This document shows positions 34,966-51,496 of a stretch of 64,000 bases of DNA, piece by piece; the stretch's first letter is position 1; each line of letters opens with the position of its first letter. The stretch is taken from positions 42,275 through 106,274 of the forward strand of contig NZ_CP045375.1 of assembly GCF_009363555.1 (NCBI RefSeq), read 5' to 3'. Origin of the DNA: Sulfitobacter sp. THAF37. GTDB lineage: Bacteria > Pseudomonadota > Alphaproteobacteria > Rhodobacterales > Rhodobacteraceae. Position numbers and translations under genes: made by a program. Under the pieces are notes generated by a model that saw nothing but the letters and a program-made list of their open reading frames with translations, was not told the DNA's origin and ran no database searches.

Positions 34966-35658
34966 TTAGAATCTTCTACGCCTTCGATAGCCACGCTGGG
35001 TGGGTTCTGCGAACTGAACCACTGGTAGCGGCCTCCCTTCACTAATCAACCTAGCGAACTCCACCTTTGGGAAGTCGAAGAGATAACGGCTTCTGCCTTG
35101 TGCGGCTGTCAGCAAGCAGAGATTTTCGCCGCCAAAGTCAAATCCGACGATCTTGCCCAATGATCCCCATTCTTTGAGAAGCCGTGTTTCCTCGGAATAA
35201 ACGGTGTAGATATCAACGCCGTCGAACCGTTCCGGATAGTTTTCTGACAACATACGTTCATATTGGATCAGATCAGTTGGGCGGCGGGTTCCATCGATAA
35301 TCCAAATTACTTGACCGTAGAAATCTGTGCGCTTTCTTACCTCAGCCGACTTGATAGCAGAGTGCTGGAACTCGATCACAAGGCCATAGGGTGTTTTGAT
35401 ATCCGCAATATGACGCTCGCCAGTTTCATCGCGAGCTAGCACCTCTTGCCAGTCGGTAAGAAACCGGTTCTTCCAGTCGCGATGCCACTCGGTTTCGTTT
35501 TCCCACCAATGATCACAATGACGGCGGCCTTTGTGCGCCCAATGCCAGGCCTTCTTGGTCCCGCATCGAGCTAGCATGGCGGCATCGCAGCCTGGGCAGT
35601 TGCCCAAGGCACCAGGCGTCGCCTCAACTCGTTGACCATTCAAAAGTGCAAAACGCAT
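34966..35658 (-). CDS. CoiA-like PD-(D/E)xK nuclease
   Basis: 230 residues. N-terminal zinc-finger-like part: NCPGCDAAMLARCG and HWAHKGRRHCDHWW. Then the nuclease core: ETEWHRDWKNRF, GERHIADIKTPYGLVIEFQHSAI, where Asp and the Glu-x-Gln pair form the PD-(D/E)xK site. CoiA family proteins are known from competence, but many lie in defence islands. ATG 35658 lies 11 bases after the AAA ATPase gene, so the two are very likely a unit. The C-terminus ends in a basic RRRRRF tail. Confidence 0.85.
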   Translation of the reverse strand: MRFALLNGQRVEATPGALGNCPGCDAAMLARCGTKKAWHWAHKGRRHCDHWWENETEWHRDWKNRFLTDWQEVLARDETGERHIADIKTPYGLVIEFQHSAIKSAEVRKRTDFYGQVIWIIDGTRRPTDLIQYERMLSENYPERFDGVDIYTVYSEETRLLKEWGSLGKIVGFDFGGENLCLLTAAQGRSRYLFDFPKVEFARLISEGRPLPVVQFAEPTQRGYRRRRRF

Positions 35659-35669
35659 TCCGACTACGC

Positions 35670-37877
35670 CTAGTTCAAATCTGACTTTACGTTCTGGTAC
35701 AACGTCACCAATTCTGCCATGCCCATGTCTAAGATTGGCTCATACATAAAGGAATTGAGATGTATATTCGCTGGCGTGATCAGATTAACGCAGCGTAGAA
35801 GGCCTATTTTTTCGGCTTCATTATTGAACAAATCTTTGAATTTTTGAAAAATCTTCCCCGTCTGTTTATTCGAAACATCAAATTCTTCCTGCGCAGAACG
35901 GATCTTCGCAACCATGTATCGCTCGGCTCGCATTCTGATCGCGATTGACAGAGCGATCTTGTGCTCAAGATTGATGCCATCGGCAACTTTTTCACACTCA
36001 TCGGCCGTGGCGAAAAGATGCTCAATAATTGGCTGCGTCAGATCAACATCAGGGAAAGTACACCCGCTCAAATGGCGTTCGAATACGGCCTTGTAGTCCT
36101 CGATGGTGAGGGCTTCAGTTTCATCTTTGAAGTGGAGCATCCTGGTAAGCTGAAGGTAGTCAGCATTAGGATTCCCATCGGCATCTTTTGGGCCAAGCGT
36201 GTACTCGATCAAATTACGTAAAAACGGGATATAAGCAATTAGAACGGACGGTTCCGCCAACCTGGCCTGCCACTTACGAAACGGACTCTGGATGTCCGTC
36301 CGCTCGAATGGCTCAAACTTGATCCCATCATCAGATCGAAACGCCAGCCGACACTGATGTGCTGGACAGATATCTCTGCTTGAAACTGTTCGAAGGAAAT
36401 CAAAGTTGTGAGTCAGGACGATGGCAAGGAAATTGGTGTCTTCGACCTTGGTTACATCCTCCAAGAAGTCGATGATCGCGAACTTGTTCTTGTAGTCAAA
36501 CGAGTCAGAAATGTCGTCAAAGACAAAGAGGGTCTTGGTGCGGTTCTTCCATCGCACGAATACCTCATACATAATATCAAGTATGTACAGCGCGCGGCTT
36601 TCACCTGTGCTTAGCGCTCGGAGCAGTTCTTGCTTTTCGGATGAAGCATAACGCCTCTCTTCACCTGCATCTTTGATGATAAAAGCAATCGAAGGAGCAC
36701 TTCCTTTGAGGATCGCATCGGCCTTGTTCTCAACGGAAAGTTCAAATGGCAGGTAGAGAAAGCGACGATTGAAATCTGCCACTACAGCATCCCAATCACC
36801 TCTGCTGCTGTCCGCGTCTGCGATGATTTCAGCGAGAGCACTTTGACCAGTTCGATACTCGGATACCAGCGCTTTGTACTCATCAAGTGCAGCCCGAAGA
36901 TATTGCATCCAAAGGTCACGTTTCAGGCCTTTCGGTTCGTTTAGCATAGGCAGAAGGTGTTTATTATCTGTGATATAGTCTCGGAAAGCCTGCAGCTCCT
37001 TATTTTTGAGCTTTGAATTGAATGTGTCGAATTTCTTCGCCACCGCCTCATCGTTCAAGACGCGAAGCTTCTCCTCTTCGATGCGCTCGCGAAGAGATTG
37101 GTCCGAGGAAACTTCTTCCTTCTGATCCGTGTTTTCATCCGCCAAGCTGATGCTGTGTCCAGCGTTAAAAAAGTTGTTCGCTTCGAGCTGCTGCTGAACC
37201 TGGGCGACATTATGATACCGAAAATCCCTTCGAAGGATTGGCGATTGTTCGGTTATCTCGTCATACTTTTGCGCAAAGTCCTCGACCGCAGCCGCCACAT
37301 CTTCGCTGGCAAGGAATTGCTGAACTTTTGGGTCGTACAGGATTCTGTAGTCGGCTTTGCCGAGGTCCGATTGATGAAGTTCGTCGAGCTCGTCCTCAAT
37401 CGCAGAAAGTGCCTCATAATAGCTACCGCCAAACACATCCTCGATAATCGGGTCTAAGTTCTCCCGTGATCTTTCTCCAAATCCCGCAGCGTTCCTGAGA
37501 GCTTTGTCCAAAGCCTTTTTTGCTTCGCCAATCGACTGATGGATTCTTTCGTACTTCGTTCTGAGTTCGGCGTTCGCAAGAAGAGTGGACACCTGACTTG
37601 AAGAGAATTTGTCATCGTAGGATTTAACGACGAAAATTTCCTCTTTCTTAATGGCTTCGCCATTCAGGGTGATCTCACAAATAGGTTCGCGATCCGGGAA
37701 GTGCAGGTCCTTCGGCGAATTGCCTTCCGATAGGTCCATCATTGTCTTCGCAAACGATGTTTTCATAACACCGTTCGGAGCGTAGATCGCGTAGCCTTTG
37801 TGCTTAAACTCCAGCTCTACCTCAAGTTTTCCAATTCCATAACAATATCTTAAATTTATGTTCAGCTTATCGGCCAC
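35670..37877 (-). CDS. AAA (AAA_13/SMC-like) ATPase
   Basis: 735 residues from GTG 37877 (GGAG six bases upstream; a TTG at 37889 would add four). Walker A is YAPNGVMKTSFAKT, with Met where Gly is usual; a helical, coiled-coil-like insert spans about residues 90-380; an ABC-type signature ALSTGESRALYILDI, Walker B KTLFVFDDISDSFDYKNK and H-loop VLTHNFDFLRTV follow. The C-terminal 200 residues are helical, ending HLNSFMYEPILDMGMAEL. Related to RloC/PrrC-type and other defence ATPases; no anticodon nuclease motif was seen, the paired CoiA protein may be the effector. Confidence 0.85.
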   Translation of the reverse strand: MADKLNINLRYCYGIGKLEVELEFKHKGYAIYAPNGVMKTSFAKTMMDLSEGNSPKDLHFPDREPICEITLNGEAIKKEEIFVVKSYDDKFSSSQVSTLLANAELRTKYERIHQSIGEAKKALDKALRNAAGFGERSRENLDPIIEDVFGGSYYEALSAIEDELDELHQSDLGKADYRILYDPKVQQFLASEDVAAAVEDFAQKYDEITEQSPILRRDFRYHNVAQVQQQLEANNFFNAGHSISLADENTDQKEEVSSDQSLRERIEEEKLRVLNDEAVAKKFDTFNSKLKNKELQAFRDYITDNKHLLPMLNEPKGLKRDLWMQYLRAALDEYKALVSEYRTGQSALAEIIADADSSRGDWDAVVADFNRRFLYLPFELSVENKADAILKGSAPSIAFIIKDAGEERRYASSEKQELLRALSTGESRALYILDIMYEVFVRWKNRTKTLFVFDDISDSFDYKNKFAIIDFLEDVTKVEDTNFLAIVLTHNFDFLRTVSSRDICPAHQCRLAFRSDDGIKFEPFERTDIQSPFRKWQARLAEPSVLIAYIPFLRNLIEYTLGPKDADGNPNADYLQLTRMLHFKDETEALTIEDYKAVFERHLSGCTFPDVDLTQPIIEHLFATADECEKVADGINLEHKIALSIAIRMRAERYMVAKIRSAQEEFDVSNKQTGKIFQKFKDLFNNEAEKIGLLRCVNLITPANIHLNSFMYEPILDMGMAELVTLYQNVKSDLN

Positions 37878-37972
37878 GACATTCTCCAAATGATCTCTGC
37901 GCCCCCAAAGGTCATTGCATTTGGCACTAGCGGTTCAGAGCATGCAAGGAAACAACCTCTGCTTCCCATCGC

Positions 37973-40144
37973 TCATGCCTGAATGATCCTTTCAACCAAC
38001 GTTGGAAGAATATGAGGAACAAGCTTCGAACTGGCTGCATCCAACTCCAAGAGCGGCTTCGAAAGGTACGGATGAAACTTCTCCGACATAAAGTTCCCTG
38101 CTCCCGCGAACAGATCGACAGGTTCGCCAGATCGAATATGCGTTGGTACTGTTTGAAGATCGGGGGTTTCGTCCCCTGCCTCCACCAGCAGGAACCCGTC
38201 ATGCTGCTCGACTGAAAACCCCTCACTTCTCAGTGCTAGCGCGAGGGTTGATGTCTTCACCGTACCGACCCGCGTCGCAATGACTGATGTATGCTCGCCG
38301 ATGGTGTGTATGTTATTGGCCCTAAACCCCAGCTGTTCATAGTGAGCACGCGCTTCCTCGAGCATCATCAAAGAGACTGTATCCATGTAAGCTGGGCTAG
38401 AATTCCCCTCGAGCACGGCGAACATTCGGTCGATCACTTTGTCATGAATGTCCCCCGCATCGCCGCCGAAGACGGGAGGCACACCAGCCTTCGCAGGTTT
38501 CACGACCATGACCTTTTCACGATCATGGATTTCTTGAACAACCCAACGCCTCCCGGAGAATATCAATAGCATCCCTGGGGCAAGCACATTGTCGATCGGC
38601 AGGGTTCCAAGATCCCGCCCCTCTGCAACCAAACGGAATTCTTCAGGTGTCTGGAACACCGCATAAAAGCTGTAATGCTCAACCAGCTTCTCGCCCGCGG
38701 CTCCCAAAAGTAGCAACCCGCTTCCGGCCTGTTCGATCAAGCCGGTTTCTGGATGGCCGATCGCACGCAACACATCTGCGAATACTTCGCTTGTGACCTT
38801 CCGAAAGGGGCCTTCGCGGCAGAGCACGTTGTAGATCACGCCTGCAGACGCACCGCCGCGCTGCGCTATGACTGACAGTATCTGATGGACGAGCGTCGAG
38901 AGATGAAGCGCCTGCGGTTTTGGCGGTTCGCACCAGCCTTCCAGCAGCAGATCTATCATCGCGATGGACCTGATTAAGCCGAGGCGAAGGCGATCCACGA
39001 AACTGCTCTCCGGCGTCAGTTTGGCTTCGACAGCGTACTGCCTCAGAATGGCCGGTTGTCCTTCACGCCGGCCTGACCGGCCAAGTCGTTGTCGCAACGC
39101 CGCGACGCTGAATGGCGCACCGATTTGAGCCACGCAGGTCACGTCACCGATGTCGATTCCAAGCTCGAGCGTCGACGTGCAAACGGCGGTCGTCGGCTTC
39201 GCAGGATCCTTCAAGCGCCGCTCAACGAAGTCACGGTGTTCTCGGGAGAGGCTCGCGTGGTGGGGATAGAATTCCTGTGGCAGGTGCTCCCGTTCGCAAA
39301 GCTCCCGCAACCGATCTGCGTAGATCTCGACCCGCTGGCGCGCTCCGGCGAAGACCAGGTTGTCGCTGCCTCGAAGATTTTTGAAAAGATGAGCTGCGAT
39401 GGCGTCCGTTGCGGATGGGCTGTTTTCATCTTCATCGCCTGAGAGGTAGCCGCGAAGCTGTAGCCTCAATTCAGCCTCGCCGCCATCTGCTTCGATTAGC
39501 TGGACAGAGCTTGCTGTGTCAGGGCGAAGATAGGCCTTGGCGAGATCCATGTCGCCTAGCGTAGCTGACAGACCTATCCGACGGATTGGGCGCTTTATCG
39601 CGAGCTCGAGCCTTGTGAGTAGTGAACGAAGCTGGACACCGCGTTCGCTATCCAGAACTGTGTGCAGTTCGTCGATCACGACCGCCCGCGTGGCCCCAAA
39701 CAGGCGGGCGATTTCCAAACCACGACGAATGAAAAGCGCCTCAAGGGACTCTGGGGTTATCAGAAGGATCCCTTTTGGAGATTTCAACGCGCGCGTCTTG
39801 ATCGATTGCGAGACATCCCCGTGCCAGGGAACAACCGGAAGCTCTGCTTCCTGGCAGATGCCCTCCAGCCGCATGGCCTGGTCCGTGATCAGAGCTTTCA
39901 GCGGACCGATGTAGAGCAGGTCGAAGCCGGTGCCGCCCGACGGCTCGTCAAGCGCCTGTGAAATCAACGGCAGGAACGCCGCCTCGGTCTTTCCGCCCGC
40001 CGTGGACGCCGCAACGATCAAATCGGCGTTGGTCTCGTAGATCGTCCGGATGGATCGCGCCTGGATGTCGCGAAGTTCGCGCCATCCTTTCTGGCGTATC
40101 CATTTCTGAACAGGCCTCGCCAGTTTGTCGAACGCACTGCTCAT
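37973..40144 (-). CDS. SF2 DEAD/DEAH-type helicase (Shango SngC-like)
   Basis: 723 residues. Helicase motifs: ASTAGGKTEAAFLP (I), TPESLEAL (Ic), VVIDELHTVL (II), GLSATLGDM (III), TSTLELGIDIGDV (V) and QRLGRSGRREGQ (VI), giving an Lhr-like two-domain motor in residues 1-370, then a winged-helix and a C-terminal domain of unknown role. In the Shango anti-phage system a TerB-like protein, a P-loop ATPase and a DEAD/DEAH helicase work together; this gene is five bases after the ATPase gene. Unwinding of foreign DNA is presumed, not shown. Confidence 0.88.
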   Translation of the reverse strand: MSSAFDKLARPVQKWIRQKGWRELRDIQARSIRTIYETNADLIVAASTAGGKTEAAFLPLISQALDEPSGGTGFDLLYIGPLKALITDQAMRLEGICQEAELPVVPWHGDVSQSIKTRALKSPKGILLITPESLEALFIRRGLEIARLFGATRAVVIDELHTVLDSERGVQLRSLLTRLELAIKRPIRRIGLSATLGDMDLAKAYLRPDTASSVQLIEADGGEAELRLQLRGYLSGDEDENSPSATDAIAAHLFKNLRGSDNLVFAGARQRVEIYADRLRELCEREHLPQEFYPHHASLSREHRDFVERRLKDPAKPTTAVCTSTLELGIDIGDVTCVAQIGAPFSVAALRQRLGRSGRREGQPAILRQYAVEAKLTPESSFVDRLRLGLIRSIAMIDLLLEGWCEPPKPQALHLSTLVHQILSVIAQRGGASAGVIYNVLCREGPFRKVTSEVFADVLRAIGHPETGLIEQAGSGLLLLGAAGEKLVEHYSFYAVFQTPEEFRLVAEGRDLGTLPIDNVLAPGMLLIFSGRRWVVQEIHDREKVMVVKPAKAGVPPVFGGDAGDIHDKVIDRMFAVLEGNSSPAYMDTVSLMMLEEARAHYEQLGFRANNIHTIGEHTSVIATRVGTVKTSTLALALRSEGFSVEQHDGFLLVEAGDETPDLQTVPTHIRSGEPVDLFAGAGNFMSEKFHPYLSKPLLELDAASSKLVPHILPTLVERIIQA

Positions 40145-40149
40145 CGGCG

Positions 40150-41457
40150 TCAGAGCTTGAAGCTGATCAGATCATCGTCACCGGGGTCTTGGGCGCCCGT
40201 CGACTCGTCTACCTCGGTCATGTCTTCGCCGAGGTCTTCAGAGACTTCGATCTTTTCGATCAGATCGCTCCACTCGACACCGGGGTTTTGCTCCAGCACG
40301 GAAAGCAGGTTCACGAAGGCCGTCACCGTATTGCGCGGGGTGCGGAAGTAAGCTTCACCGATCCGGTCCGAGCAATGCGCCATGAATGCCTCGAGTGCGG
40401 CGTCCGGCAGAGCACTGGCATCGTCCTGCATGATCCGCCGGACATTGGCCAGAAGTACGAAAAGGTCTTCAGGGGTCAGGCTGGCGAGCCGGACAACTGG
40501 TCCTGAAAGGTCGACCAATCCGTCTCGCGCGAAGGTATTTTCGGCCAAACGCGACTGAAGGGCTTCGTAGCTATAGAGTCCACGACGGGTGTTCATCAGA
40601 AACTCCGGGGTCCCGCCCATGAGAAATCCGAGGTTCTCGGCACTGCCTTGCAGCACATCGTTCAGTATCCGGAGGATCTGCTCGTAGTTTGCATTGCGCG
40701 CCTGCGACGAGGTGAGCTTGTAGAGGTTCACCATCTCGTCGAGACCGACGAGCAAGCCTTTGTAACCGGCCTCGCACACAAATGCCGACATCAGCTTCAG
40801 ATGGTCATAGACACTGGCGTCGTCGATGATCGTTCGCACACCAAGCGCCTTGCGAGCGTCGGTGCGTGTCGCGAACTCGCCGCGCAGCCATCTCAGGGCT
40901 GCGGATTTCAACTCGTCGTCGCCGGTCTCATGGCCTTCCCAATATCGACGGATGACTTCGGCGAACTCAAACCCTCCTGTAAGTTCTTCAAAGTGGCCAA
41001 GGCGTTCACGAATGACGGTCCCCGTGGGCAATTCCCGTTCTTCAGCATCTCGGTGAGCCTGGCTGACAAACCGTTCTACCACGCTGGCCAATGCCCCGCC
41101 ATCGGGCTTTGTCCGCGTCGAGAGGTTTCGGGCCATCTCCGCATACAGCCCCCGAGCTTGTCCGCCGGTCGCGTGAATACGGCGATCCGGCGCCAGATCC
41201 GCGAACATCACGACCAGGCCTTTCTCCAAGGCGACGAGGCGGATCAGGTTCATGAAGAACGTCTTGCCCGATCCGTATTCCCCGATGATGAACCTGATTG
41301 CCGATCCGCCATCGGATATCCGGTCCATGTCCTTAACGAGCTCTTCAATCTCCCGGACGCGACCGACCTGGATATGGCGCAAACCTAGCTTGGGCACGAC
41401 CCCAGCCCGAAGCGCCTGTACGATTGCATCGCGTTCACGTGGTTTCAACTTAGACAT
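40150..41457 (-). CDS. P-loop ATPase, DUF2791/BREX-ATPase-like (Shango SngB-like)
   Basis: 435 residues from ATG 41457, which overlaps the stop of the TerB gene and has GGAGGG upstream. Walker A is FIIGEYGSGKTFFMNLIRL (about residues 57-75), Walker B GYKGLLVGLDEMVNLYKL, and sensor-like NLGFLMGGTPEFL. The GEYGSGKTFF box is shared with the BREX accessory ATPase family. A Glu/Asp-rich tail ends the protein. Its fixed place between TerB-domain and helicase genes fits SngB. No other BREX gene is present. Confidence 0.87.
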   Translation of the reverse strand: MSKLKPRERDAIVQALRAGVVPKLGLRHIQVGRVREIEELVKDMDRISDGGSAIRFIIGEYGSGKTFFMNLIRLVALEKGLVVMFADLAPDRRIHATGGQARGLYAEMARNLSTRTKPDGGALASVVERFVSQAHRDAEERELPTGTVIRERLGHFEELTGGFEFAEVIRRYWEGHETGDDELKSAALRWLRGEFATRTDARKALGVRTIIDDASVYDHLKLMSAFVCEAGYKGLLVGLDEMVNLYKLTSSQARNANYEQILRILNDVLQGSAENLGFLMGGTPEFLMNTRRGLYSYEALQSRLAENTFARDGLVDLSGPVVRLASLTPEDLFVLLANVRRIMQDDASALPDAALEAFMAHCSDRIGEAYFRTPRNTVTAFVNLLSVLEQNPGVEWSDLIEKIEVSEDLGEDMTEVDESTGAQDPGDDDLISFKL

Positions 41458-43978
41458 CCCTGCCCTCCGCACTCATCTTTTCTTTTACCGCCTCCGCAAT
41501 CTCCGGAGACACGTCATATCCATCATACTCGTCGAGAAGCGCTTCATCGTAGGTCTCAAAAGCCCATTCATTCACAACTTCCAGTGCCCCGGACGCCATC
41601 AAGCCATGCGAGGCGCAGATCGTCTCGAACTCTGTGTCAGACCAATGCTCCCGAGTAACTAGGTCGAGGACAAGGGCGCCGTGTTTCGGGTCAAGCCCCG
41701 CCAGCTGGCTTTGGCTGGCGGGCCCAGACGCACCACTTTCTTCCTCTTCGACATCGAAAATCTGACCGAGGACGGACGACACGCGCTCAGTGTCCGAACG
41801 GATTGCTGCGATCCGCGACGCGTCGAGTTTGGGTCCGCTGGCTTTTTCAAGATCGGGTATCGCTTCGCCCGGGCGACCCGGTTGCGAGGCACGAACAGTG
41901 CGAGGACCATCCGCGACTTCGCCAGCATGCAGATCCGAGTAGGCAAGCGCAGGATCGAGGCCCAAAGCCTTGTAGATTTTCTCAATGCTTGCGACTTCGT
42001 CGGAGTGAATAATGCCATCGGCATGTGCTGCACCGACCAGCGCTGCCCGCATAGCGGCCTGGCTGTCTTGGCCCACCTCCTTCAGTTTGCGCCGCAGAAG
42101 CGTCATGTCCGGTGGCACGGCCAGGAACCATTCAAGGTTTGCACGCAGCCTGCGTCGCTCCTGATCGCTGAGTGCCGCGGCAGAAACCTGATTTTCCAGC
42201 GCCCTGCGTTCAGTCTCCGCGATGCAACCATCCGCATGGGCGACGAACGACCCAAGTGCCAATTCGATCAAGGCGCTTCGATAGCTATCGGAAACGTCCT
42301 CGAGTCTTTCGATGGGTTCGCCCAGACGAAACAGCACAACAGGCTCCTCCGCCTTGGGCGACCGGAGCGCAAACCGAGGGTCGGGCGCCAGACCGAAACC
42401 GAGGCGCGCGAGCGCGTCGGCGGCTCCTGTCGTTTGCCGTTTCCCGATCTTCTCGTTCGTTTCTCCCTCCAGACGCCCGATCACCTCTTCAAGCAGCACC
42501 AATCCCCCTCGATCGACGATATCGCTTGCCCAAGATTTCAAGCGGTCCATTTCCTCTGATGGGAAAGCATCCCAAAGTTCAGAGGGCAGCAAGGCATGCG
42601 CTTCCACACTTCCGCGACCGTCAGGGTTTCGGCCCAGGAAGCGACTGAGCTTGTCGAGGTCGTTCATCACCTCGTCAGCCAACTCTTGGGCAATCTCGAC
42701 CGGTTTGCGCAGGCCGGAAATATCGGGGACCGGCTTGCCGCCGACGGTTGGGTTGGCGGACCCCTGAAACTCGCTGGAGGCGGCCCGATAGGATGCAGTG
42801 AGTGATTTCCGTGGTTTTGTCACTTTGAGTCCATCAGGAAAACGCCGATCAAACCGCATACGGAACAGCGCGACGAACTCGTCACGGCACCGCGTCGCGG
42901 GAGTTCTCAGATTTGTTTCCGGATGGCAGATGAACCAACTCAGCAACCAGTCAGCTGTCAGGTTCTCTCCTTTGTCGATACGAGCTCCGATTGCGTATTT
43001 GAGTGAGAACGGAAGTTCCCAGCCCTGCTTCTCGAAAATCGGCTCGATAGCGTCGAGGTCGGTTTCGGCGAGCATCGCGATGTCGAGGAACTCACCCAAA
43101 TACCGCCTGACGGAATGGTTATCAGGGTAAAGTGACTGCAGCCGTCGAACTTCCTGGACGATATCCTTTGCATCTTCGTTCGACTGATCGACGAAGAAGC
43201 GACGCTCCAGCCCGTAGAAGTACAAGAACATGTAGCCGGGGTTATAGGAAGCGTCGCTTCGCCCACTTGCCAACCACTCCAAATAGGTTGCCCGACACTG
43301 GGGTGAGATATCCGAGTATCCGGGCCAATACGGCATGCCATCGCCAGCCTTGTCCCTGCCCGAGCGCGCGACCGACAGGGACGGATCGATATAGGCTCGG
43401 CATTTGTCACGATACCCGTAGGAGTTCAGCAAGGGAGGCGTGCCAACATAGACCATCCCGCCGATGTTGAGACCGGCGACGCTAGCCGTTTCGCTAGAAG
43501 GGACCCACCCGCTTTTCGATGATCGGGCCGATGAGCTCGATGCCACTCGCGAGGGCTGGTTTCGTTCTGCGGCCGCTGCAAGTGCCGGCGCCGCAGACTT
43601 TCCAGCGCGAACGACCTCAGCGTAGTCCTGCTTCGGAGGGGAATAGGCTTGAGTCACAGCCGATCCCGTGGAAACATTGGCTTCACGAGTTCGTTCGCGT
43701 TCACGCTCGACACGTTTTTCATACGCATTTGGAGGCGCTACCAGCGCTAAATTCGGTTTTGTTGTTTCCGAACTCTTTGCGTCGCCATTTGTAGCGGCAA
43801 TTTTTCTAGATCGCCGCCTTTCTTGCCACCAAACCAAAAAGATGGGCGCTCCCAATGCAAAAAGAACTTGGCTGCCGTCCGACCAAGACTGCAATCCAAG
43901 TGTAACAATTACCAAAGCAGCAAAGAAATAAATCGCTAAAAAAAATGTAACTCGAAAAACCTTCCATACAAAACTCAT
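41450..43978 (-). CDS. TerB-domain protein with membrane anchor (Shango SngA-like)
   Basis: 842 residues from ATG 43978 (GGAG nine bases upstream). Two hydrophobic helices at the start (about residues 1-28 and 34-50) suggest membrane attachment, then a low-complexity linker, a TerB-N domain (about 165-400; FYGLERRFFVDQ), a TerB-like helical unit with two acidic metal-type motifs FVAHADGCIAETERRAL and GAAHADGIIHSDEVASIEK (about 590-680), and a TerB-C part to the end. TerB modules bind divalent metal and are linked to membrane-associated stress and phage defence. It overlaps the ATPase gene by eight bases. Confidence 0.87.
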   Translation of the reverse strand: MSFVWKVFRVTFFLAIYFFAALVIVTLGLQSWSDGSQVLFALGAPIFLVWWQERRRSRKIAATNGDAKSSETTKPNLALVAPPNAYEKRVERERERTREANVSTGSAVTQAYSPPKQDYAEVVRAGKSAAPALAAAAERNQPSRVASSSSARSSKSGWVPSSETASVAGLNIGGMVYVGTPPLLNSYGYRDKCRAYIDPSLSVARSGRDKAGDGMPYWPGYSDISPQCRATYLEWLASGRSDASYNPGYMFLYFYGLERRFFVDQSNEDAKDIVQEVRRLQSLYPDNHSVRRYLGEFLDIAMLAETDLDAIEPIFEKQGWELPFSLKYAIGARIDKGENLTADWLLSWFICHPETNLRTPATRCRDEFVALFRMRFDRRFPDGLKVTKPRKSLTASYRAASSEFQGSANPTVGGKPVPDISGLRKPVEIAQELADEVMNDLDKLSRFLGRNPDGRGSVEAHALLPSELWDAFPSEEMDRLKSWASDIVDRGGLVLLEEVIGRLEGETNEKIGKRQTTGAADALARLGFGLAPDPRFALRSPKAEEPVVLFRLGEPIERLEDVSDSYRSALIELALGSFVAHADGCIAETERRALENQVSAAALSDQERRRLRANLEWFLAVPPDMTLLRRKLKEVGQDSQAAMRAALVGAAHADGIIHSDEVASIEKIYKALGLDPALAYSDLHAGEVADGPRTVRASQPGRPGEAIPDLEKASGPKLDASRIAAIRSDTERVSSVLGQIFDVEEEESGASGPASQSQLAGLDPKHGALVLDLVTREHWSDTEFETICASHGLMASGALEVVNEWAFETYDEALLDEYDGYDVSPEIAEAVKEKMSAEGRDV

Positions 43979-44091
43979 CAATAAAATCTCCAAACTGGCC
44001 AGTTCGATCTCAAGAGAACGGCGCCCACATCTCAACCTCTAGGCAATTTTTCTCTGCTAGAACAATCGAATCCCCAGTGGGGGTGCACATT

Positions 44092-44394
44092 TCAGCAGTT
44101 TTCGAAGAGGTCAGGCGTGTTCGTGTCACGCACTCGGCTCAAACCTTCGCCAACATGCAAACATGGGTGCTTTATCCTATACAATCCCTTCGCGCCCTCA
44201 AAATGAGCGCTGCCACCATTGGGCATACGGACCGTGACCACGTCTGCACCGCATATGGGGCACTGATGCCGGAAACTGCGCTGGCGCTTTGCCTTCGAAG
44301 AAGACTGTAAGACCCAGCTTTCTCGAACGTCGGTAGTGCCACCATTTGGCAAGCGCCGCGAATGAGCTCGCCGTCGAAACCAACGAGGATCCAT
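44092..44394 (-). CDS. Small zinc-ribbon protein between SbcC and TerB genes
   Basis: 100 residues; ATG 44394 overlaps the sbcC stop (TGATG). One treble-clef-like ribbon: HQCPICGADVVTVRMPNG, then HFEGAKGLYRIKHPCLHVGEGL gives Cys/His ligands C45, C48 and later His/Cys. The first 40 residues are Arg-rich and could touch nucleic acid. No named family recognised. Its coupling to sbcC and 114-base gap to the TerB gene make it the joint of the operon. Function unknown. Confidence 0.65.
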   Translation of the reverse strand: MDPRWFRRRAHSRRLPNGGTTDVRESWVLQSSSKAKRQRSFRHQCPICGADVVTVRMPNGGSAHFEGAKGLYRIKHPCLHVGEGLSRVRDTNTPDLFENC

Positions 44395-47300
44395 CAGACC
44401 ACCCCCCTTTCCTCTATACTACTCCCAGACATCCCTTTTCTGACATAGAAGCCGTTTGGGATCGCCTCCTGGACGAGCGGTACATGCGAAATCAGACCCA
44501 CCGCACGGTTATGTCGGACGATGGAGTTGAGGACCTGTAGGACCTGGTCGAGCGTGCCGGACCCGTTTTCGGTGTCGAGGCTTCCAAACCCTTCGTCGAT
44601 AAAAATCGTGTCGAGCCGGACTTTGCCACTCGCCGCTTCGACCACGTCGGCAAGACCCAGTGCTAGAGCGAGTGCCGCAATGAACGTCTCGCCGCCTGAG
44701 AGTGTGCTTGTAGCGCGTGATTTCCCAGTGTGCGCGTCAAACACCTGTGTTCCAAGGCCTCGCTTGCCTCTCCCTCCGTTCTCCATCTCACGCTCGAGAC
44801 TATACTGGTAGTTTGTCATCGGACCGAAGCGTAGGTTTGCAGCTTCCAGAATCTGATCGAACATCGCGCCTATTGCGAATGTCTCCAGGGTCAGTCTTTG
44901 CGAGTTCTGCCCGTTCACCAGCGCAGCTAGTCCGCGCAGCGGACCTGATGCCGCTTCGGCTTCGTCAAGCTTGCGCAACGTCTCTTCAATCCCCTTTCTA
45001 AGCCGATCCAAATGATCGACACGGGTCTGGGCGGCGATGCGTTCTTCGGTCACCCTGCCGAGTGCCTCAGCATGGGTCTGGTGCGTTTCCCGCAGCGCTT
45101 CGATGTCAGGCCGGGACATGCCTTCAATCGCAGAGGTAGCATCTGTGACTGCATCAGACGCACTCTTGTGCTCACGCCGGTAGGTCTCGACCGTTTCTCT
45201 ATCTTCATTAAGAGTTTCGATGGCTGGCTTGAGAGACTGAAAGGCCTCTGCTGTGAGGCCAGCTTCAGCCAGTCTCGTCCGGAAAACCCCCGCCGCCTTT
45301 TGATGGCGCGTCTTGCAGCCCGCGAGCGCCTTGTCCGCGCTTTCGAGATCCTTGACTGCGCCGAGTGCCTTTTCGCGCGCGGAGTTCAGCGCTTTTTCTG
45401 CTGCGGTCCGCGCCGCCTGAAGTGACGCCAGCGACCCAGTCACATTCTTAAGTGTGGCCGCGAGCACCGTCACATCGCGCAGGTCCTCCGGCACCTCGGC
45501 AAGCTTGCCATCGCGGGCCGCCTTGGCCTCGGTTGCCTTGTTCCGCCGCTCATCAAAGCGATCACGCAACTCATCGCTTTTCCGCTCCAGTTCCTCGACC
45601 TGCTGTCCCAGTTCCTCAATCCCGGCCTCCGCGGCAAGAATGTCGACCCGGGGACCAAGCGCTGCGAGTGCTGCGTCCTCACGACCGATCTGCGCCGCGA
45701 TGACGGCTGCAAGCTCCTCCGGCGGTTCAAGGGTGGACAAGCGTTTCTTTCGGTCCTCCATGGTTGCACGCAGCCCAGCCAGCGCCTCATTGGCCTTCCG
45801 AGCTTCGCGATCGGCGGCCAGCCATGCTTCTCGTGACTCTCGGAAAGCCTTATCCAGGCCGGCACTGCCGATTTCGCCCGTCGCAGGAGCGGGATGCTCG
45901 GTCGCGCCGCAGACCGGACATGGCAACCCTGCTTCCAGTCTCGTCGCAAGGTGCAGCGCCTGTGCGGCCGCGAGATTTCTTTCGGCTGTCTCAAAACTCT
46001 CTCGTGCCTTCTCGGCCCTTCCTGACGCAGCTTCCGACTTCCGAAGCTGTTCTTCGACAGCGGCCTGAGCCGTCGCAACATCCTGTAAGGCGCCCTCATA
46101 GGACTTGGCTGCCAGATGCCGTTGGTCGAGTTCTGCGCGACGACCCGCGATCTCGGCGCGCTTCGTCTCGGCCTCACGCGCGACTTTCAACTCGGCGTTT
46201 TTCGAGACGCGCTTCTCCTGGAGTTTAGTCAGTTGTGCCTTTGCCGCCTGAAAAGCGTTGTCGGCGTCAAGCTGCTCTTTCAGCGCGGTCTCGACTGCCT
46301 GATTGCTTTCGGCTGCTGCCTCAAGGATTCGACCATACCTCTCCAGCTCATCGCTTCTCCGGCGCAGGGTTTCGACCTCATCGGCACGGTCTTCCTCACG
46401 CCGGAGCGCATCTGCCGCCTTTTCTACTTGTTTCGCGCCAATTTCGGCGCCCTTGTCTGCCTCTTCGCGCTTGGTCTCGGCTTCACTAACCTCGCGTTCG
46501 GCATCCCTCACACGTTCCTCGACATCGATCAGACCCCGCGCGCGCTCGGCTTGTCGGACCTGCTCGGCAAGCGCCTCGATATCGTCCTTCCGCGCCTCAA
46601 GTGCGCGAAGCCGTTCCCTCATCTTTTCGGCCGCCGCGAACTTTTCCTCAATGGCCTCCGCCTGGCGCAGCGCCTTCTCGGCAACTTCCGCCGTCGCCTT
46701 TTTGGTTTCTTCGATCACGCGTAGCTCTGCGCATTTCCCAGTTGCGGCTTCGATGCCCGAAATCAGTGCATCAGTGCTTTCGAACCCTTCTGCCGCGAGT
46801 TGCCTGATGCAGAGCGCACGTTCCTCTCGCACCTGCCGTTCAGCCTCATCGGCTTCTGACTTGAGATCGGCCATGAGCTTCTCGTATAGCGAGACATCGA
46901 AGAGTTCTCGCAGGATTTCAAGGCGCTCTTTCGTCTTGGCCGAAAGGAACTTCTCGAAGCGCCCTTGAGGCAGGAGGACGATCTGGCGAAATTGCTCGGA
47001 GCCATATCCAAGCATCTCGACGACGGCCGCGTCGACGTCGCGCACCTTCTTCTCTGCCACGATCTTGCCCCGCGCCGCGTCTGTAATGTCGTCTAACGAC
47101 ATTCCGGTCGCATCAAACAGGTAAGCTTCGTGTGCGCTCCGCGTCTCGCCTTCACCGCGCGCCTTGGGTCGCATCTGGTCGGGTCGGCGAAGCACAACAT
47201 ATCGCCGCTCACCAATGTCGAACACGAACTCCGCCTCGGTCATTATATCCGGATCGGCGTGATCCGAGCGCAACGAAGGAGCGTCTTGCTCTGCCTTCGC

Positions 47301-47468
47301 CGCTTCTCCAAAGAGCGCAAAGGTCATCGCGCTGAAGATGGTCGATTTACCTGATCCTGTTTGTCCGTAGATGCCGAAAAGACCCACCTCGACGGCATCC
47401 CGAAAGTCGATAACCACCCGACCTGGATAGGGACCGAACGCCTGAAGTGTTAGCCGAACCGGTCTCAT
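44394..47468 (-). CDS. sbcC: SbcC/Rad50-type nuclease ATPase
   Basis: 1024 residues. Walker A is FGIYGQTGSGKSTIFSAMTF, the Rad50 zinc hook GLPCPVCGATEHP sits mid-protein (about residue 515) between two long coiled coils, and the signature TSTLSGGETFIAALALAL and Walker B DTIFIDEGFGSLD close the head. SbcC pairs with SbcD to cut hairpins and DNA ends. ATGA overlap with sbcD. A chromosomal copy surely exists elsewhere in such a host, so this is a cargo version dedicated to the island; the call of dedication is inference. Confidence 0.95.
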   Translation of the reverse strand: MRPVRLTLQAFGPYPGRVVIDFRDAVEVGLFGIYGQTGSGKSTIFSAMTFALFGEAAKAEQDAPSLRSDHADPDIMTEAEFVFDIGERRYVVLRRPDQMRPKARGEGETRSAHEAYLFDATGMSLDDITDAARGKIVAEKKVRDVDAAVVEMLGYGSEQFRQIVLLPQGRFEKFLSAKTKERLEILRELFDVSLYEKLMADLKSEADEAERQVREERALCIRQLAAEGFESTDALISGIEAATGKCAELRVIEETKKATAEVAEKALRQAEAIEEKFAAAEKMRERLRALEARKDDIEALAEQVRQAERARGLIDVEERVRDAEREVSEAETKREEADKGAEIGAKQVEKAADALRREEDRADEVETLRRRSDELERYGRILEAAAESNQAVETALKEQLDADNAFQAAKAQLTKLQEKRVSKNAELKVAREAETKRAEIAGRRAELDQRHLAAKSYEGALQDVATAQAAVEEQLRKSEAASGRAEKARESFETAERNLAAAQALHLATRLEAGLPCPVCGATEHPAPATGEIGSAGLDKAFRESREAWLAADREARKANEALAGLRATMEDRKKRLSTLEPPEELAAVIAAQIGREDAALAALGPRVDILAAEAGIEELGQQVEELERKSDELRDRFDERRNKATEAKAARDGKLAEVPEDLRDVTVLAATLKNVTGSLASLQAARTAAEKALNSAREKALGAVKDLESADKALAGCKTRHQKAAGVFRTRLAEAGLTAEAFQSLKPAIETLNEDRETVETYRREHKSASDAVTDATSAIEGMSRPDIEALRETHQTHAEALGRVTEERIAAQTRVDHLDRLRKGIEETLRKLDEAEAASGPLRGLAALVNGQNSQRLTLETFAIGAMFDQILEAANLRFGPMTNYQYSLEREMENGGRGKRGLGTQVFDAHTGKSRATSTLSGGETFIAALALALGLADVVEAASGKVRLDTIFIDEGFGSLDTENGSGTLDQVLQVLNSIVRHNRAVGLISHVPLVQEAIPNGFYVRKGMSGSSIEERGVV

Positions 47469-48607
47469 TGGACATCCTCCGTCTCACGCAGGCGGCCGAG
47501 TGCCGACGCTACGACCTCCAGTTCGTTCTCTGAGAACCCTTCTTCCCGCACGTGTTCGAGGAAGTCGCCAAGGACTTCGACAGGGTTAGCGACCGCTAGG
47601 GCACGTCCCGTTAAGGACTTTACTTCTGGCGCCCGTTCATCCCGCTCGTAGATAAGTTCACAGGCGTTCGGGAACACGTCGCGGATGCGCTTCATTCCAT
47701 CGATCACAGGCGCATCATCGGTAAGCACGGCTTTGATAAAATCGTCAGATCGGTCTGCGAGGAGAAGTTCTGCGTGACGTCCCTTCAAGACGCGCACTTT
47801 GCGAATGGGTGTGAACGGAATGCTCTCAATCGTGGTTTGCCCGACTGCATCGATCTCTACGAGGCTCATCGACTTCTGGCAGTCAGATTCATCAAATCCG
47901 AAAGCCAGTGGCGATCCCGAATACCGGATATGAGATGCACCGACCGATTGCGGCCGGTGCAGATGCCCGAGCGCCACATAATGAGCACCTTCGAACACGG
48001 ATGAACTGACCGTCTCGACGCCCCCCACTCGAGTGAGAGGCCGCTCACTTTCGCTGCTCGCCGCCCCAGCTACAAATGCATGCGAAACGATGATCCATCG
48101 CGCGCCATCTGGAATGTTACGCCGACTGCAAGCCACCTGAGCCGCGAGAACGTCCTCGGGGGTGTGGAGAGCTTCATCGGCGAAGCATTCGCGGGCGGCA
48201 TAGTCATAAGCGAAGGGCAACCCTGTGAACGCCACGGGTCCGTGTGCGTCACTGAGGACCAGAGGTTTCTCGTCCGCACTGATAGCCCCACGTATCAACG
48301 CGCGTCGTGTGTCTGTCATAATCGCCATGGACGCGATTCGATCACCCGAGTCGTGATTGCCGGCGATCATTACCACGGCCGCCTCGGTCTCCGAGGCAAC
48401 GCGCGCCAAGAACCCATTGAACTGACGCACGGCAGACGTCGGCGGGGCAGCCCGATCAAAAATATCGCCTGCAATTACAAGAACGTCAACGTCGCGGGAG
48501 GTGATCGCCGAAACGATCTGATCGAGTATTGCTGCGTGATCGGCATCGAGAGGAATCCCGTTGAACTGACGCCCGAGATGGAGGTCGGCGGTGTGAAGAA
48601 TCCTCAT
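47465..48607 (-). CDS. sbcD: SbcD/Mre11-type exonuclease subunit
   Basis: 380 residues. Metallophosphoesterase motifs: ILHTADLHLGR (I), VLVIAGDIFDRA (II), VVMIAGNHDSGDR (III), VSHAF (IV), ALGHLHRPQSV (V). These place two metal ions for DNA cleavage. It is the first gene of the eight-gene minus-strand row and starts 11 bases from a pair of direct repeats shared with the divergent WYL regulator. C-terminal capping domain present. Confidence 0.95.
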   Translation of the reverse strand: MRILHTADLHLGRQFNGIPLDADHAAILDQIVSAITSRDVDVLVIAGDIFDRAAPPTSAVRQFNGFLARVASETEAAVVMIAGNHDSGDRIASMAIMTDTRRALIRGAISADEKPLVLSDAHGPVAFTGLPFAYDYAARECFADEALHTPEDVLAAQVACSRRNIPDGARWIIVSHAFVAGAASSESERPLTRVGGVETVSSSVFEGAHYVALGHLHRPQSVGASHIRYSGSPLAFGFDESDCQKSMSLVEIDAVGQTTIESIPFTPIRKVRVLKGRHAELLLADRSDDFIKAVLTDDAPVIDGMKRIRDVFPNACELIYERDERAPEVKSLTGRALAVANPVEVLGDFLEHVREEGFSENELEVVASALGRLRETEDVQ

Positions 48608-48617
48608 GGCAATGACC

Positions 48618-48642
48618 CGTATATTTTTTATTCGTATATTTT
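48618..48642. promoter_or_regulatory. Tandem 10-bp repeats in the sbcD-WYL divergent promoter
   Basis: CGTATATTTT occurs at 48618-48627 and again at 48633-48642, a 15-base period, within an AT-rich 77-base gap between sbcD and the WYL regulator. The repeats include TATATT, which can serve as -10 elements. Candidate operators for the WYL protein. Confidence 0.5.
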
Positions 48643-48684
48643 CTAGATGGACATACAGGCGAGAGTCAAGGTAGGGATGCGCAC

Positions 48685-49479
48685 ATGAAGCTCGACGACC
48701 TCAAACATGCGCAGAGAGAGCGCCTGATCTTTCTGGACCGCTGCCTGACCTGGCGGGGTATGGCAAACCGCAAGGATCTGATCGACCGCTTCGGTATTTC
48801 GACCGCGCAGGCAGCGCTGGACTTTCGTGTCTATCTCGGTCTCGCGCACAGTACACCGCCGACCTATGATCCGGTGCGAAAGACCTATATTGCTTGGATC
48901 GAACACGAGCCTTTAGCACCATCCGGCCTGACCGAAGCCCTCGATATCCTGACGAGCGATGATGACGATGCGCCGCCTTCCGCGTTGCCACGACCGGAAC
49001 GCAAGGCAGATCGGAGGACTATCGCGCTGCTTCACCAGGCAATCAGGTCGGGGAAAGCCCTCCACGTACGGTACACGTCGATGTCGTCCGGTGCCGACGA
49101 AGGGCAGTGGATTGCGCCGACCCGCTTCACGTCCGATGGTGAAAGCGTGCACTTGCGTGCCCACAGTTTCAAGCACGGTGAATATCGGAACTACCTCCCG
49201 ATCCGCATCGATCCTGACAGCTCCTTCGAGGAGAAACCCATAGACAAGCCTCTGCCGGAGGACGTGGATTGGAATACTCGAGCAATCATCTGGCTGCGAC
49301 CAAAGACAGGACTTTCAGATCAGCAAGCAAAGGTCGTCAGACGTGAATTCGGCTTTGAAGGCGAATGGCTTCGAGTCGAAACCAGAAAAGCGCTGGAATT
49401 CTTTTTTGATCGTCGATGGGGATTGGATACCATGGGCGCACGGATTGAGCGCGCGAAAACGGACTACGAACCAATTTGA
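48685..49479 (+). CDS. WYL-domain regulator (CapW/BrxR-like)
   Basis: 264 residues. N-terminal winged helix-turn-helix (FLDRCLTWRGMANRKDLIDR and FGISTAQAALDFRVYLGL), a middle WYL-type domain (GKALHVRYTSMSSGADEGQW, RAHSFKHGEYRNYLPIRI) and a C-terminal dimerisation part. This layout is that of CapW/BrxR repressors, which keep defence operons off until damage or phage products release them. It is divergent from the eight-gene defence row and is its likely master control. Its stop is four bases from the end of virD4. Confidence 0.88.
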   Translation: MKLDDLKHAQRERLIFLDRCLTWRGMANRKDLIDRFGISTAQAALDFRVYLGLAHSTPPTYDPVRKTYIAWIEHEPLAPSGLTEALDILTSDDDDAPPSALPRPERKADRRTIALLHQAIRSGKALHVRYTSMSSGADEGQWIAPTRFTSDGESVHLRAHSFKHGEYRNYLPIRIDPDSSFEEKPIDKPLPEDVDWNTRAIIWLRPKTGLSDQQAKVVRREFGFEGEWLRVETRKALEFFFDRRWGLDTMGARIERAKTDYEPI

Positions 49480-49483
49480 ATAA

Positions 49484-51496
49484 CTAAATCTCTTCGCGTA
49501 CGCCCTTCTTGCTCCGCTCCATAGTTGCCTCCAACATATCGAGACCATCGACAGCAGAGCGCATCTGCGCCTCATCATCCACGCTCACTGCCTCGGCATC
49601 CGTGACTTGGCCCCCAAAATCCATCTCCATCTGGCGCTGTTCCTCGGCGACGACGGCTTGAACTACAGGTGCTGTCTTCTTTGTGGCGATATCGGTTTTC
49701 CCTGAAGGTTGGCCCCCAGCAGCCTCGCCTACCCGCTCCACATCAGCTTCAGAACCACGGGGCCCGCTCGACGGCGGTGTCATCGGCATCGCGCGGACAC
49801 TCAACGGCAGCGTGCCTTGCGATCCCCCTCCCCCCGGTTCCGGAAACGGCAACTCCCCCGTCTGCGCTGCATGGATGGCCTTAAACAGCCGGTCGTCAAA
49901 ATACTGGATCCGCTTTGCCCGGACCGGCATCTGGGCATCGATGACCATGACGATTTCGTCGAGCGGTAGGCGGCGCGCCTCATCCTCGGGCAGGAGAGAG
50001 CTTTCTTCGGTCCGGGTCGACTGGCTGCGCCCTTCAAAGGGGTTCTTGCCGATGGACTGGGATCGCGTGATGACGGTCTTCGTGGTCTTGCCGACCGCCT
50101 TGCTCAGTTCCTCGACGGTTTTTTCATCCGAAGGCGTTAGGTAGAGCTTCACGCCCGCGTTGCCCTGTAGCGCGCGGCGGGTGTTCTCACCGTAGATTTC
50201 ATCGAGGGCGGGGATGGTTTGCGTGACAACGGCCAGGTGACCGCGATAGGTGCGCAGGGTCTCGATACTCTCGACCACGATGGGCATCTTGCCGAGACGA
50301 TTGAACTCGTCGAGCATGATCATCACGGGCCACGGCTCGTCTGGCCCGGGATCCTTTTCCTGCATGGCGGAGAGGAGATCGGAGAAGAATAGGCGGATCA
50401 GCGGTGCGAGGGGTTTCACCATTAGCGGCTGGACCACGAGATAGACCGAAAAGGGCTTTTTCCGGATCGTCCGGAAATCAAAATCCGACACCGCCGTCGC
50501 TTCATCGATGGCCGGGTTCTGCCATTGATCGAGCCCCGAGGTCATCAGGAGCGAAACGTATGAGGTCAGCGTGTCGTTGTTGGTCGAGGCCAGCCGCGTG
50601 AAGATCAGCTTCGCGGCCCTGTTCTCCACCTCATGGCCCCGCGCGAAGTATTCCTTCTGCTTGTTCCCGCCCGAAGCCGCGATGCGATAGATTTCGCCGA
50701 GAGTCGGACGCTTGCGCTGGAAGGCCAGCAGGCCTGCCGCCACAAAAAGATCGATTCCGCCCTTGAGGAGGCCCTGCACCCGGTCGTTGTCGCTTTGCAG
50801 GAACAGCGTCGCCAGGAGTTGCAGTTCCATCTGTTGGCGCGCGGGATCTTTCAGCTGATAGATGCGCAGGAGCGGGTTGTAGCGATGCGTGCGCCTGCCC
50901 TCCCAATCGGTGGGGGCAAAGCGATAGACCTTGTCACCTTGGGCGGCGCGGTGCCGGGCCGTGGCCTCGAAACACTCTCCCTTTACATCGAGCGTCACGG
51001 CGGAGCCTTGCCAGGTCAGCAGGTTTGGAATGACGAAACCCGTGGTCTTGCCGCGGCCCGTGGGCGCCACGATCAGCGCATGCGGGAAGACCTTGGAGCA
51101 AATGTATTTTGCGCGGGAGCCGGGCGCCCCAAGCTTGCCGAGGATGAACCCGGTCCCAGGCGCCCCGAAAAACCCGTTTGCCTTCATCTCGCGCGCGCTC
51201 TGCCAATGAGTCTGACCAAAGCGTGTCAGGGCAGACCCTGAGAGAGCGAGGCTCAGCATCAGGCCGGCGGCGGCGAAGCTGCCGATGATCAGATGGATGA
51301 GTTGCGCGTCCTCGGGGCGGCGGTCCAGGATCGCCATGTAGTTCTGCGCGATATAAGCAAAGTCGATCTCGGCCCCGAAGCCGAGATCCTGGTAGGTCAG
51401 CACCGCCGAGGCGATGGTATAGCCCATGGCGGCGGTCACCAGCGTCACCAACAGGACGCCCGTGGCAATTCGCGCTTTTCCCATGGGCGCGCTCAA
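49484..51496 (-). CDS. virD4: VirD4/TraG coupling protein
   Basis: 670 residues. Two or three membrane helices in the first 95 residues, Walker A ALIVAPTGRGKTTGFVIPN, the TLDVKGECFEAT strand, Walker B PVMIMLDEFNRLGKMP and the late VVTQTIPALDEIYG motif. It brings the relaxase-DNA complex to the channel using ATP. The C-terminal 120 residues are Pro/Gly-rich and variable. ATGA overlap with virD2 upstream. Confidence 0.95.
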   Translation of the reverse strand: MSAPMGKARIATGVLLVTLVTAAMGYTIASAVLTYQDLGFGAEIDFAYIAQNYMAILDRRPEDAQLIHLIIGSFAAAGLMLSLALSGSALTRFGQTHWQSAREMKANGFFGAPGTGFILGKLGAPGSRAKYICSKVFPHALIVAPTGRGKTTGFVIPNLLTWQGSAVTLDVKGECFEATARHRAAQGDKVYRFAPTDWEGRRTHRYNPLLRIYQLKDPARQQMELQLLATLFLQSDNDRVQGLLKGGIDLFVAAGLLAFQRKRPTLGEIYRIAASGGNKQKEYFARGHEVENRAAKLIFTRLASTNNDTLTSYVSLLMTSGLDQWQNPAIDEATAVSDFDFRTIRKKPFSVYLVVQPLMVKPLAPLIRLFFSDLLSAMQEKDPGPDEPWPVMIMLDEFNRLGKMPIVVESIETLRTYRGHLAVVTQTIPALDEIYGENTRRALQGNAGVKLYLTPSDEKTVEELSKAVGKTTKTVITRSQSIGKNPFEGRSQSTRTEESSLLPEDEARRLPLDEIVMVIDAQMPVRAKRIQYFDDRLFKAIHAAQTGELPFPEPGGGGSQGTLPLSVRAMPMTPPSSGPRGSEADVERVGEAAGGQPSGKTDIATKKTAPVVQAVVAEEQRQMEMDFGGQVTDAEAVSVDDEAQMRSAVDGLDMLEATMERSKKGVREEI

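Follow-up and report, generated by a model that had tools for sequence, protein, structure and literature searches.

Bacterial SbcCD, the Mre11-Rad50 type of nuclease and ATPase, has been studied chiefly as a housekeeping repair complex. Several described defence systems resemble parts of the locus reported here. Shango (SngABC) is a three-gene system whose anti-phage activity was demonstrated for a Pseudomonas aeruginosa copy (PMC10250203, in the sections available); Lamassu (LmuABC) combines a Rad50-like ATPase, a nuclease and a small third protein, and likely recognises abnormal DNA (PMC10586767, from an excerpt); and the related regulators CapW and BrxR head defence-type operons, namely the cyclic-oligonucleotide-based anti-phage signalling system (CBASS) and bacteriophage exclusion (BREX), from a conserved intergenic element. 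Here we describe a 64,000-nucleotide stretch of Sulfitobacter sp. THAF37 (hereafter the window; positions 42275-106274, the right end of contig G000:C4) in which a WYL regulator of the CapW/BrxR type faces an sbcD-sbcC pair, followed by a gene for a small zinc-binding protein (ZnR) and then by a Shango trio. Shango is known; the WYL-SbcDC cassette with its small partner is the notable part, and we found no published description of it. No title or abstract opening in the literature listings presented SbcCD as a defence that is dedicated, under WYL control or linked to Shango; these listings were partial and cover subscription journals and bioRxiv thinly. We lean towards reading the locus as a mobile, repressor-gated SbcCD nuclease cassette that may police abnormal DNA ends or hairpins, beside an independent Shango system.

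The cassette consists of the following features, with coordinates counted in the window:

48685..49479, plus strand: WYL regulator of the CapW/BrxR type, 264 amino acids, Pfam WYL match, divergent from sbcD
48608..48684, no strand assigned: divergent intergenic region of 77 bp, predicted as the likely promoter/operator
48669-48647, minus strand: conserved element TTGACTC-N-GTCCAT, within the 77-bp WYL-sbcD region
47465..48607, minus strand: sbcD, Mre11-like nuclease subunit, 380 amino acids, TIGR00619 152 bits, above the cut-off
44394..47468, minus strand: sbcC, Rad50-like ATPase, 1024 amino acids, Pfam AAA_23 and SbcC_Walker_B
44092..44394, minus strand: ZnR, small zinc-binding protein, 100 amino acids, its start overlapping the sbcC stop
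44104..44118, minus strand: C-terminal ZnR motif T-x-[DE]-L-F (TPDLF in the window), from the aligned rows

A profile scan with a ZnR alignment across the genome contigs of 84,980 species yielded 86 relatives, the best 80 of which were kept, and clusters were set at 90% DNA identity. In this set of alphaproteobacterial loci, the WYL-SbcD-SbcC-ZnR cassette is modular. All four genes matched in 48 of the 80 loci (21 clusters, each with one representative), and their order and orientation were identical in 48 of 48; some of the other 32 loci stop at a contig end and some are without SbcC, which matched in 57 of the 80. The WYL gene was divergent from sbcD in every one of the 48 full blocks and in 21 of 21 plasmid stretches holding SbcD. 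In all 48 blocks, the start of the ZnR match either overlapped the stop of the preceding long frame or was no more than 9 bases away.

SbcD matches the SbcD chains 7dog (E 1e-43) and 6s6v in PDB, and its translation contains DxH, GDxxD, GNHD and GHLH, which we take to be the nuclease motifs. SbcC contains a Walker A, a CPVC hook, an LSGGE signature and a FIDEG Walker B, presumably its ATPase, zinc-hook and signature elements; it scores 359 bits against sbcc_Staph, below the cut-off of 920, and all NCBIfam SbcC models stay below their cut-offs. Nuclease motifs, ATPase/zinc-hook motifs and the operon order sbcD-sbcC are all found in chromosomal SbcCD as well, whereas the cassette is often on plasmids, faces a WYL gene, continues into ZnR or another gene, and occurs in a host family with few full-scoring SbcD proteins: the TIGR00619 cut-off is passed in 8 of 149 genomes, and 4 of these 8 carry ZnR. 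In the genome of the window, this sbcC is the sole SbcC match at E≤0.001. By analogy with SbcCD biochemistry, we infer that the cassette enzyme would cut hairpins and DNA ends.

ZnR gave no match in Pfam, PADLOC, NCBIfam or PHROGs at E≤0.01. A known fold was rejected for it, as its AlphaFold prediction reached a mean pLDDT (predicted local distance difference test) of 80 and a pTM (predicted template modelling score) of 0.46, and neither PDB nor viral proteins gave a match at E≤0.001. A chance reading frame was also rejected: the gene is under purifying selection, with a ratio of nonsynonymous to synonymous substitution rates of 0.08-0.32 in 12 of 12 pairs. Residues C45, C48, H76 and C78 are conserved in 70 of 70 aligned rows, and T-x-[DE]-L-F in 69 of them, the exception (L116) ending at a contig end. 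Among the 21 representatives, distances correlated at 0.86 for SbcD-SbcC, 0.77 for SbcD-ZnR and 0.68 for SbcC-ZnR (each 0/1000 permutations), and by this measure SbcD, SbcC and ZnR evidently share a history. Given the start/stop overlap, the purifying selection and the SbcD-ZnR and SbcC-ZnR correlations, ZnR is a candidate partner of SbcCD. It is usually absent from gene lists: of 14 annotated plasmid stretches in which ZnR matched nearly in full, 1 lists the gene, in a gene table that by design is not complete. A protein search with ZnR found 11 relatives, 7 of them on genomes whose longest contig is under 10 kb, and the viral collection contained 2 ZnR loci. Three Rhizobium loci (L129, L132 and L134) have a stand-alone ZnR gene upstream of a 437-aa and a 191-aa gene; the two genes of L129 form a CBASS-type pair by their matches to SMODS/AGS_C and SLATT_4, and L132 and L134 are likened to it by gene lengths only. 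In Sagittula MA-2 (L154:9858-10294), a near-full ZnR match stands next to what is left of SbcC, a short piece, and a recombinase gene lies immediately upstream.

The ZnR tail resembles the beta-clamp motif QL(S/D)LF, but its first residue is Thr and never Gln. A change of this Gln to Glu, Ala or Gly greatly reduces clamp-peptide affinity (PMC11139829, partial text), so that tethering of ZnR to the clamp is a lead only, the tail being without Gln. A third Mre11-Rad50 subunit is named for eukaryotes in the excerpt of PMC10586767. One could imagine that plasmids of Alphaproteobacteria carry Mre11-Rad50 as an immune cassette under repressor control, in which the third subunit is exchangeable (ZnR, HNH and others). 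ZnR would then be a bacterial third subunit dedicated to SbcCD, tethering the nuclease to the sliding clamp through T-x-D-L-F and so letting it inspect replicating invader DNA at the fork; we regard this elaborate version as unlikely.

The gene in third place varies between branches. On two Roseobacter-group plasmids the gene after sbcC is annotated as HNH (Pfam checked for one), namely in Roseobacter denitrificans (L182:10218-10508) and Roseovarius W115 (L186:8317-8469). A Caulobacter cassette has a 222-aa frame without a Pfam match as its third gene, a Sphingopyxis cassette has a small frame more than 100 bp beyond sbcC, and for two other sphingomonads an opposite-strand gene is listed next after sbcC. 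The WYL gene, the promoter element and SbcDC are, in the loci compared, the constant core, with ZnR as the apparent partner in one large branch. A Rad50-like ATPase, a nuclease and a small third protein are shared with Lamassu, and the cassette could be an abortive system of that type in which SbcC is the sensor and SbcD or the third gene the effector. SbcC matches an LmuB model, but weakly (66 bits), and ZnR, HNH or another gene can take the third place. The cassette differs from Lamassu, however, in having a full-length SbcC together with a full-length SbcD, in the absence of LmuA among the PADLOC matches listed for ten proteins (the best 25 of 55 for one), and in the Walker B glutamate of SbcC, where LmuB generally has Gln (excerpt of PMC10586767). 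We consider the Lamassu-like explanation improbable.

The WYL protein matches the PDB chains of CapW (7qfz, 7tb5, 7tb6 and 9c5g) and BrxR (7t8k) with E-values from 1e-13 to 1e-23, over residues 3-251 of 264. The cassette has in common with CapW-regulated CBASS and BrxR-regulated BREX a defence-type operon led by a regulator of the same family and a conserved intergenic element, but differs in its payload, which is SbcCD; the word 'SbcC' does not appear in the main text of the CapW and BrxR papers (PMC9122588, PMC9122601). The element, written as TTGAC-N9-15-TCCAT, precedes sbcD in 46 of 48 blocks; among the 21 plasmid stretches that contain SbcD it is found in 20, some of them with cassettes that lack ZnR. 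In the window it occurs once, with both strands searched. Both CapW and BrxR act as repressors by binding palindromes that overlap the -10 or follow it closely (PMC9122588, PMC9122601, in the parts available). A generic scan gave 9 terminator-like sites vs 16.2 in shuffles. Directly behind the WYL gene, and on its strand, 11 loci (e.g., L079, L088 and L096) carry a gene of ~84 aa, which plasmid records label as a WGR-domain gene. In three sphingomonad cassettes (L181, L184 and L185), the gene right behind WYL is annotated as DUF6035 in two and as CoiA family in the third; the cargo of the window, too, ends with a CoiA-like gene.

If the locus is a repressor-gated nuclease cassette, it might work as follows. 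The CapW/BrxR-like protein would bind the conserved intergenic element and hold SbcCD low, until a signal from phage or plasmid invasion or from DNA damage, perhaps single-stranded DNA, released the repressor, as the regulator family suggests. SbcCD would then cut hairpins and blocked or abnormal ends on invader or damaged plasmid DNA, as its biochemistry would predict, and would act in hosts mostly without a full-scoring SbcD; ZnR may serve as an accessory subunit that loads or targets it. The surroundings are consistent with a role in defence. At E≤1e-15, 119 flanking proteins hit 191 PADLOC models vs 18 for 128 proteins from distal stretches, although these counts are of overlapping models rather than proteins, only some of the contigs are common to the two sets, and the flank set is not confined to plasmids, so that the figures show a contrast and should not be read as a rate. 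The flank set was a random 119 of 125 proteins of ≥150 aa within 6 kb of the cassette in 20 representatives, with the window's own cluster excluded and one Shango locus included; for the control set, 128 proteins were drawn at random from the 198 encoded in 14 distal stretches on nine contigs that carry ZnR. The top model among the flank proteins was GajA of Gabija (4 proteins). In addition, 12 of 20 hand-picked annotated SbcD plasmid stretches show BREX, CBASS-type, TIR, SIR2, restriction-modification, Shango, AbiE or AbiH genes.

The same plasmid stretches point to a competing explanation, in which the cassette is a plasmid-upkeep module: SbcCD would clear hairpins, collapsed forks and protein-blocked ends that arise from conjugation or replication, damage would switch it on through WYL, and the defence neighbours would be incidental. 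At least 11 of these 20 stretches contain relaxase, TraG, type IV secretion system or repABC genes, most hosts have no full-scoring SbcD of their own, and a WYL regulator that senses single-stranded DNA acts in a DNA-damage response (PMC11804915, partial text). On the other hand, the flanks are richer in defence-model matches than the distal stretches, the regulator matches CapW/BrxR chains, and an HNH gene is able to occupy the third place. We judge upkeep to be a possible explanation, though a clearly less probable one than a gated defence nuclease.

A number of observations weigh against the gated defence cassette. Its defence function is inferred from sequence, and plasmid upkeep would fit as well, given that repair is what intact SbcCD is chiefly known for. 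Eight of the 20 hand-picked SbcD plasmid stretches are without a named defence gene. At the promoter, the generic sigma-70 scan did not call the conserved element and found no excess of promoter-like sites (6 vs 5.7 in shuffles); our own scan for a palindrome after the element gave none in the window, and a clear one in only 3 of 21 representatives with a weaker one in a fourth. The WYL distances do not track those of ZnR (rho 0.06, 235/1000 permutations) and only weakly track those of SbcD (0.25, 14/1000) and SbcC (0.21, 25/1000). Finally, ZnR is not universal, its place in distant cassettes being taken by HNH, another gene or no same-strand gene; and 23 of the 80 ZnR loci, some at contig ends, have no SbcC match, one of them lying beside CBASS-type genes, which argues against a strict dependence of ZnR on SbcCD.

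Downstream of ZnR, the cargo continues on the same strand with Shango and two further genes:

41450..43978, minus strand: sngA, TerB-domain Shango subunit, 842 amino acids (likely start), PADLOC SngA 342 bits, TerB_N/TerB/TerB_C
40150..41457, minus strand: sngB, BrxC/BrxD-like ATPase of Shango, PADLOC SngB 585 bits, Pfam BrxC_BrxD
37973..40144, minus strand: sngC, DEAD/DEAH helicase of Shango, PADLOC SngC 896 bits
35670..37889, minus strand: PDC-S46-like P-loop protein (S46), 739 amino acids, PADLOC PDC-S46 795 bits, phrog_38705 483 bits
34966..35658, minus strand: CoiA-like nuclease gene, 230 amino acids, CoiA_N 27.7 and CoiA_nuc 20.7 bits, just over the cut-off

The longest SngA frame (TTG 44035) probably begins 19 codons too early; the start is likely ATG 43978, since close relatives align from residue 20. 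The trio has the three contiguous genes of described Shango systems in the same order, and no feature sets it apart: it is an ordinary member, known here from sequence, beside a different module. An earlier note on this DNA had described eight minus-strand genes and a divergent WYL gene as one system, with the Shango helicase perhaps supplying the SbcCD substrate. All of these genes are present at the positions it gave, and the coordinates confirm the junctions: ATGA for sbcD-sbcC (47465/47468), TGATG for sbcC-ZnR (44394), an 8-base overlap for SngA-SngB provided that SngB starts at its own ATG (41457), 5 bases for SngB-SngC and 11 bases for S46-CoiA. Its gene identities also hold, for Shango by the PADLOC matches to SngA, SngB and SngC, for SbcCD by family matches and intact motifs, for the regulator by the solved CapW and BrxR chains, and for the CoiA-like gene by CoiA_N/CoiA_nuc scores just above the Pfam cut-offs; the defence context of the cargo is borne out as well.

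The unity of the eight genes is another matter. The two largest intergenic gaps, 113 bp between ZnR and SngA (with the start at ATG 43978) and 83 bp between SngC and S46, coincide with module borders. Shango lies within 10 kb of ZnR in 11 of the 80 loci (9 colinear, 2 convergent), and the 9 colinear loci represent one of the 21 clusters, with 93-99% identity from SngA to SngC. S46-CoiA is absent from one colinear locus (L057), and S46 relatives on one Pseudomonas and one Vibrio plasmid have no Shango gene listed within 4 kb. In 15 Shango stretches without ZnR, some of them short, there was no SbcC, SbcD, WYL, ZnR, S46 or CoiA match at E≤1e-6; these comprise 14 of the 15 other SngA genomes and the second Shango copy of the window's own genome, apart from one 3.1-kb contig and, in one genome, a further partial match. 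That second copy (L138, G000:C2:155001-175000) is 91% (SngA), 99% (SngB) and 95% (SngC) identical to the first and has no cassette gene within the 20 kb fetched, and DNA identity between the two copies is limited to 38036-43732 of the window, inside the trio. Two further cases speak for modularity: in Sagittula P11 sbcC is broken by insertion sequences with the three Shango genes still annotated, and Salipiger profundus retains the cassette, its ZnR cut at residue 32, with no Shango gene in a 33-kb stretch. Elsewhere, E. coli islands carry Shango beside ApsAB or AbiE (PMC11096173, partial text).

The two modules nonetheless occur together more often than chance predicts. The co-occurrence survey that the earlier note proposed covered 394 genomes of the family, in which strong ZnR matches (E<1e-10) occur in 13 (three weaker dropped) and strong SngA matches (E<1e-50) in 18 (seven weaker dropped); both occur together in 3 vs 0.59 expected (Fisher p 0.017, or 0.09 when only one of the two genomes with the same plasmid family is counted). 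SngA (≥70% identity) is present as well in at least 8 of the 32 plasmid records with ZnR, 2 of these 8 being colinear, 3 convergent ~4 kb apart and 3 tens of kb apart, and in Roseobacter denitrificans Shango and the HNH-type cassette are on one plasmid. A single eight-gene system under one WYL regulator could draw on this sharing, on the colinear arrangement in the window, 9 genome contigs and 2 plasmids, on the convergent neighbours in L003, L096 and L106, and on the lack of a promoter-like match on the minus strand in the 113-bp ZnR-SngA gap. We rejected it as very improbable: cassette order is constant, Shango is near in only 11 of 80 loci, all colinear genome copies form a single cluster, each module is mostly found alone, 0 of the 15 other Shango stretches have cargo genes, the DNA common to the two Shango copies stops inside the trio, and Shango has other neighbours in E. 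coli. Adjacency on a single plasmid family can mimic one system. It fits better that the cassette and Shango are frequent neighbours in defence-rich plasmid regions, and the window would then hold three separately mobile modules, head to tail on a conjugative-type plasmid: WYL-SbcD-SbcC-ZnR, Shango and an optional S46-CoiA. Shango would be an independent system, which transcription from the sbcD promoter could reach by read-through in the window's plasmid family only.

The plasmid setting is apparent from the rest of the window. Its cargo matches mostly Rhodobacterales records in the plasmid collection, where all 14.6 kb are covered at 94.3% by a Roseovarius indicus plasmid, and VirB4- and TrbI-type genes are on the same contig. 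Adjoining the cassette is the following block:

49484..53832, minus strand: TraG-type coupling protein and VirD2-like relaxase, plasmid context, the VirD2 model match being below the cut-off

Genes for an M78 peptidase-domain protein and for a HipA-type toxin lie near the contig end (60019-62904).

If the gated-nuclease reading is true, a mobile SbcCD facing a defence-type repressor would be a direct connection between Mre11-Rad50 and bacterial immunity, and the cassette would offer a tractable system for how Mre11-Rad50 complexes distinguish foreign from own DNA.

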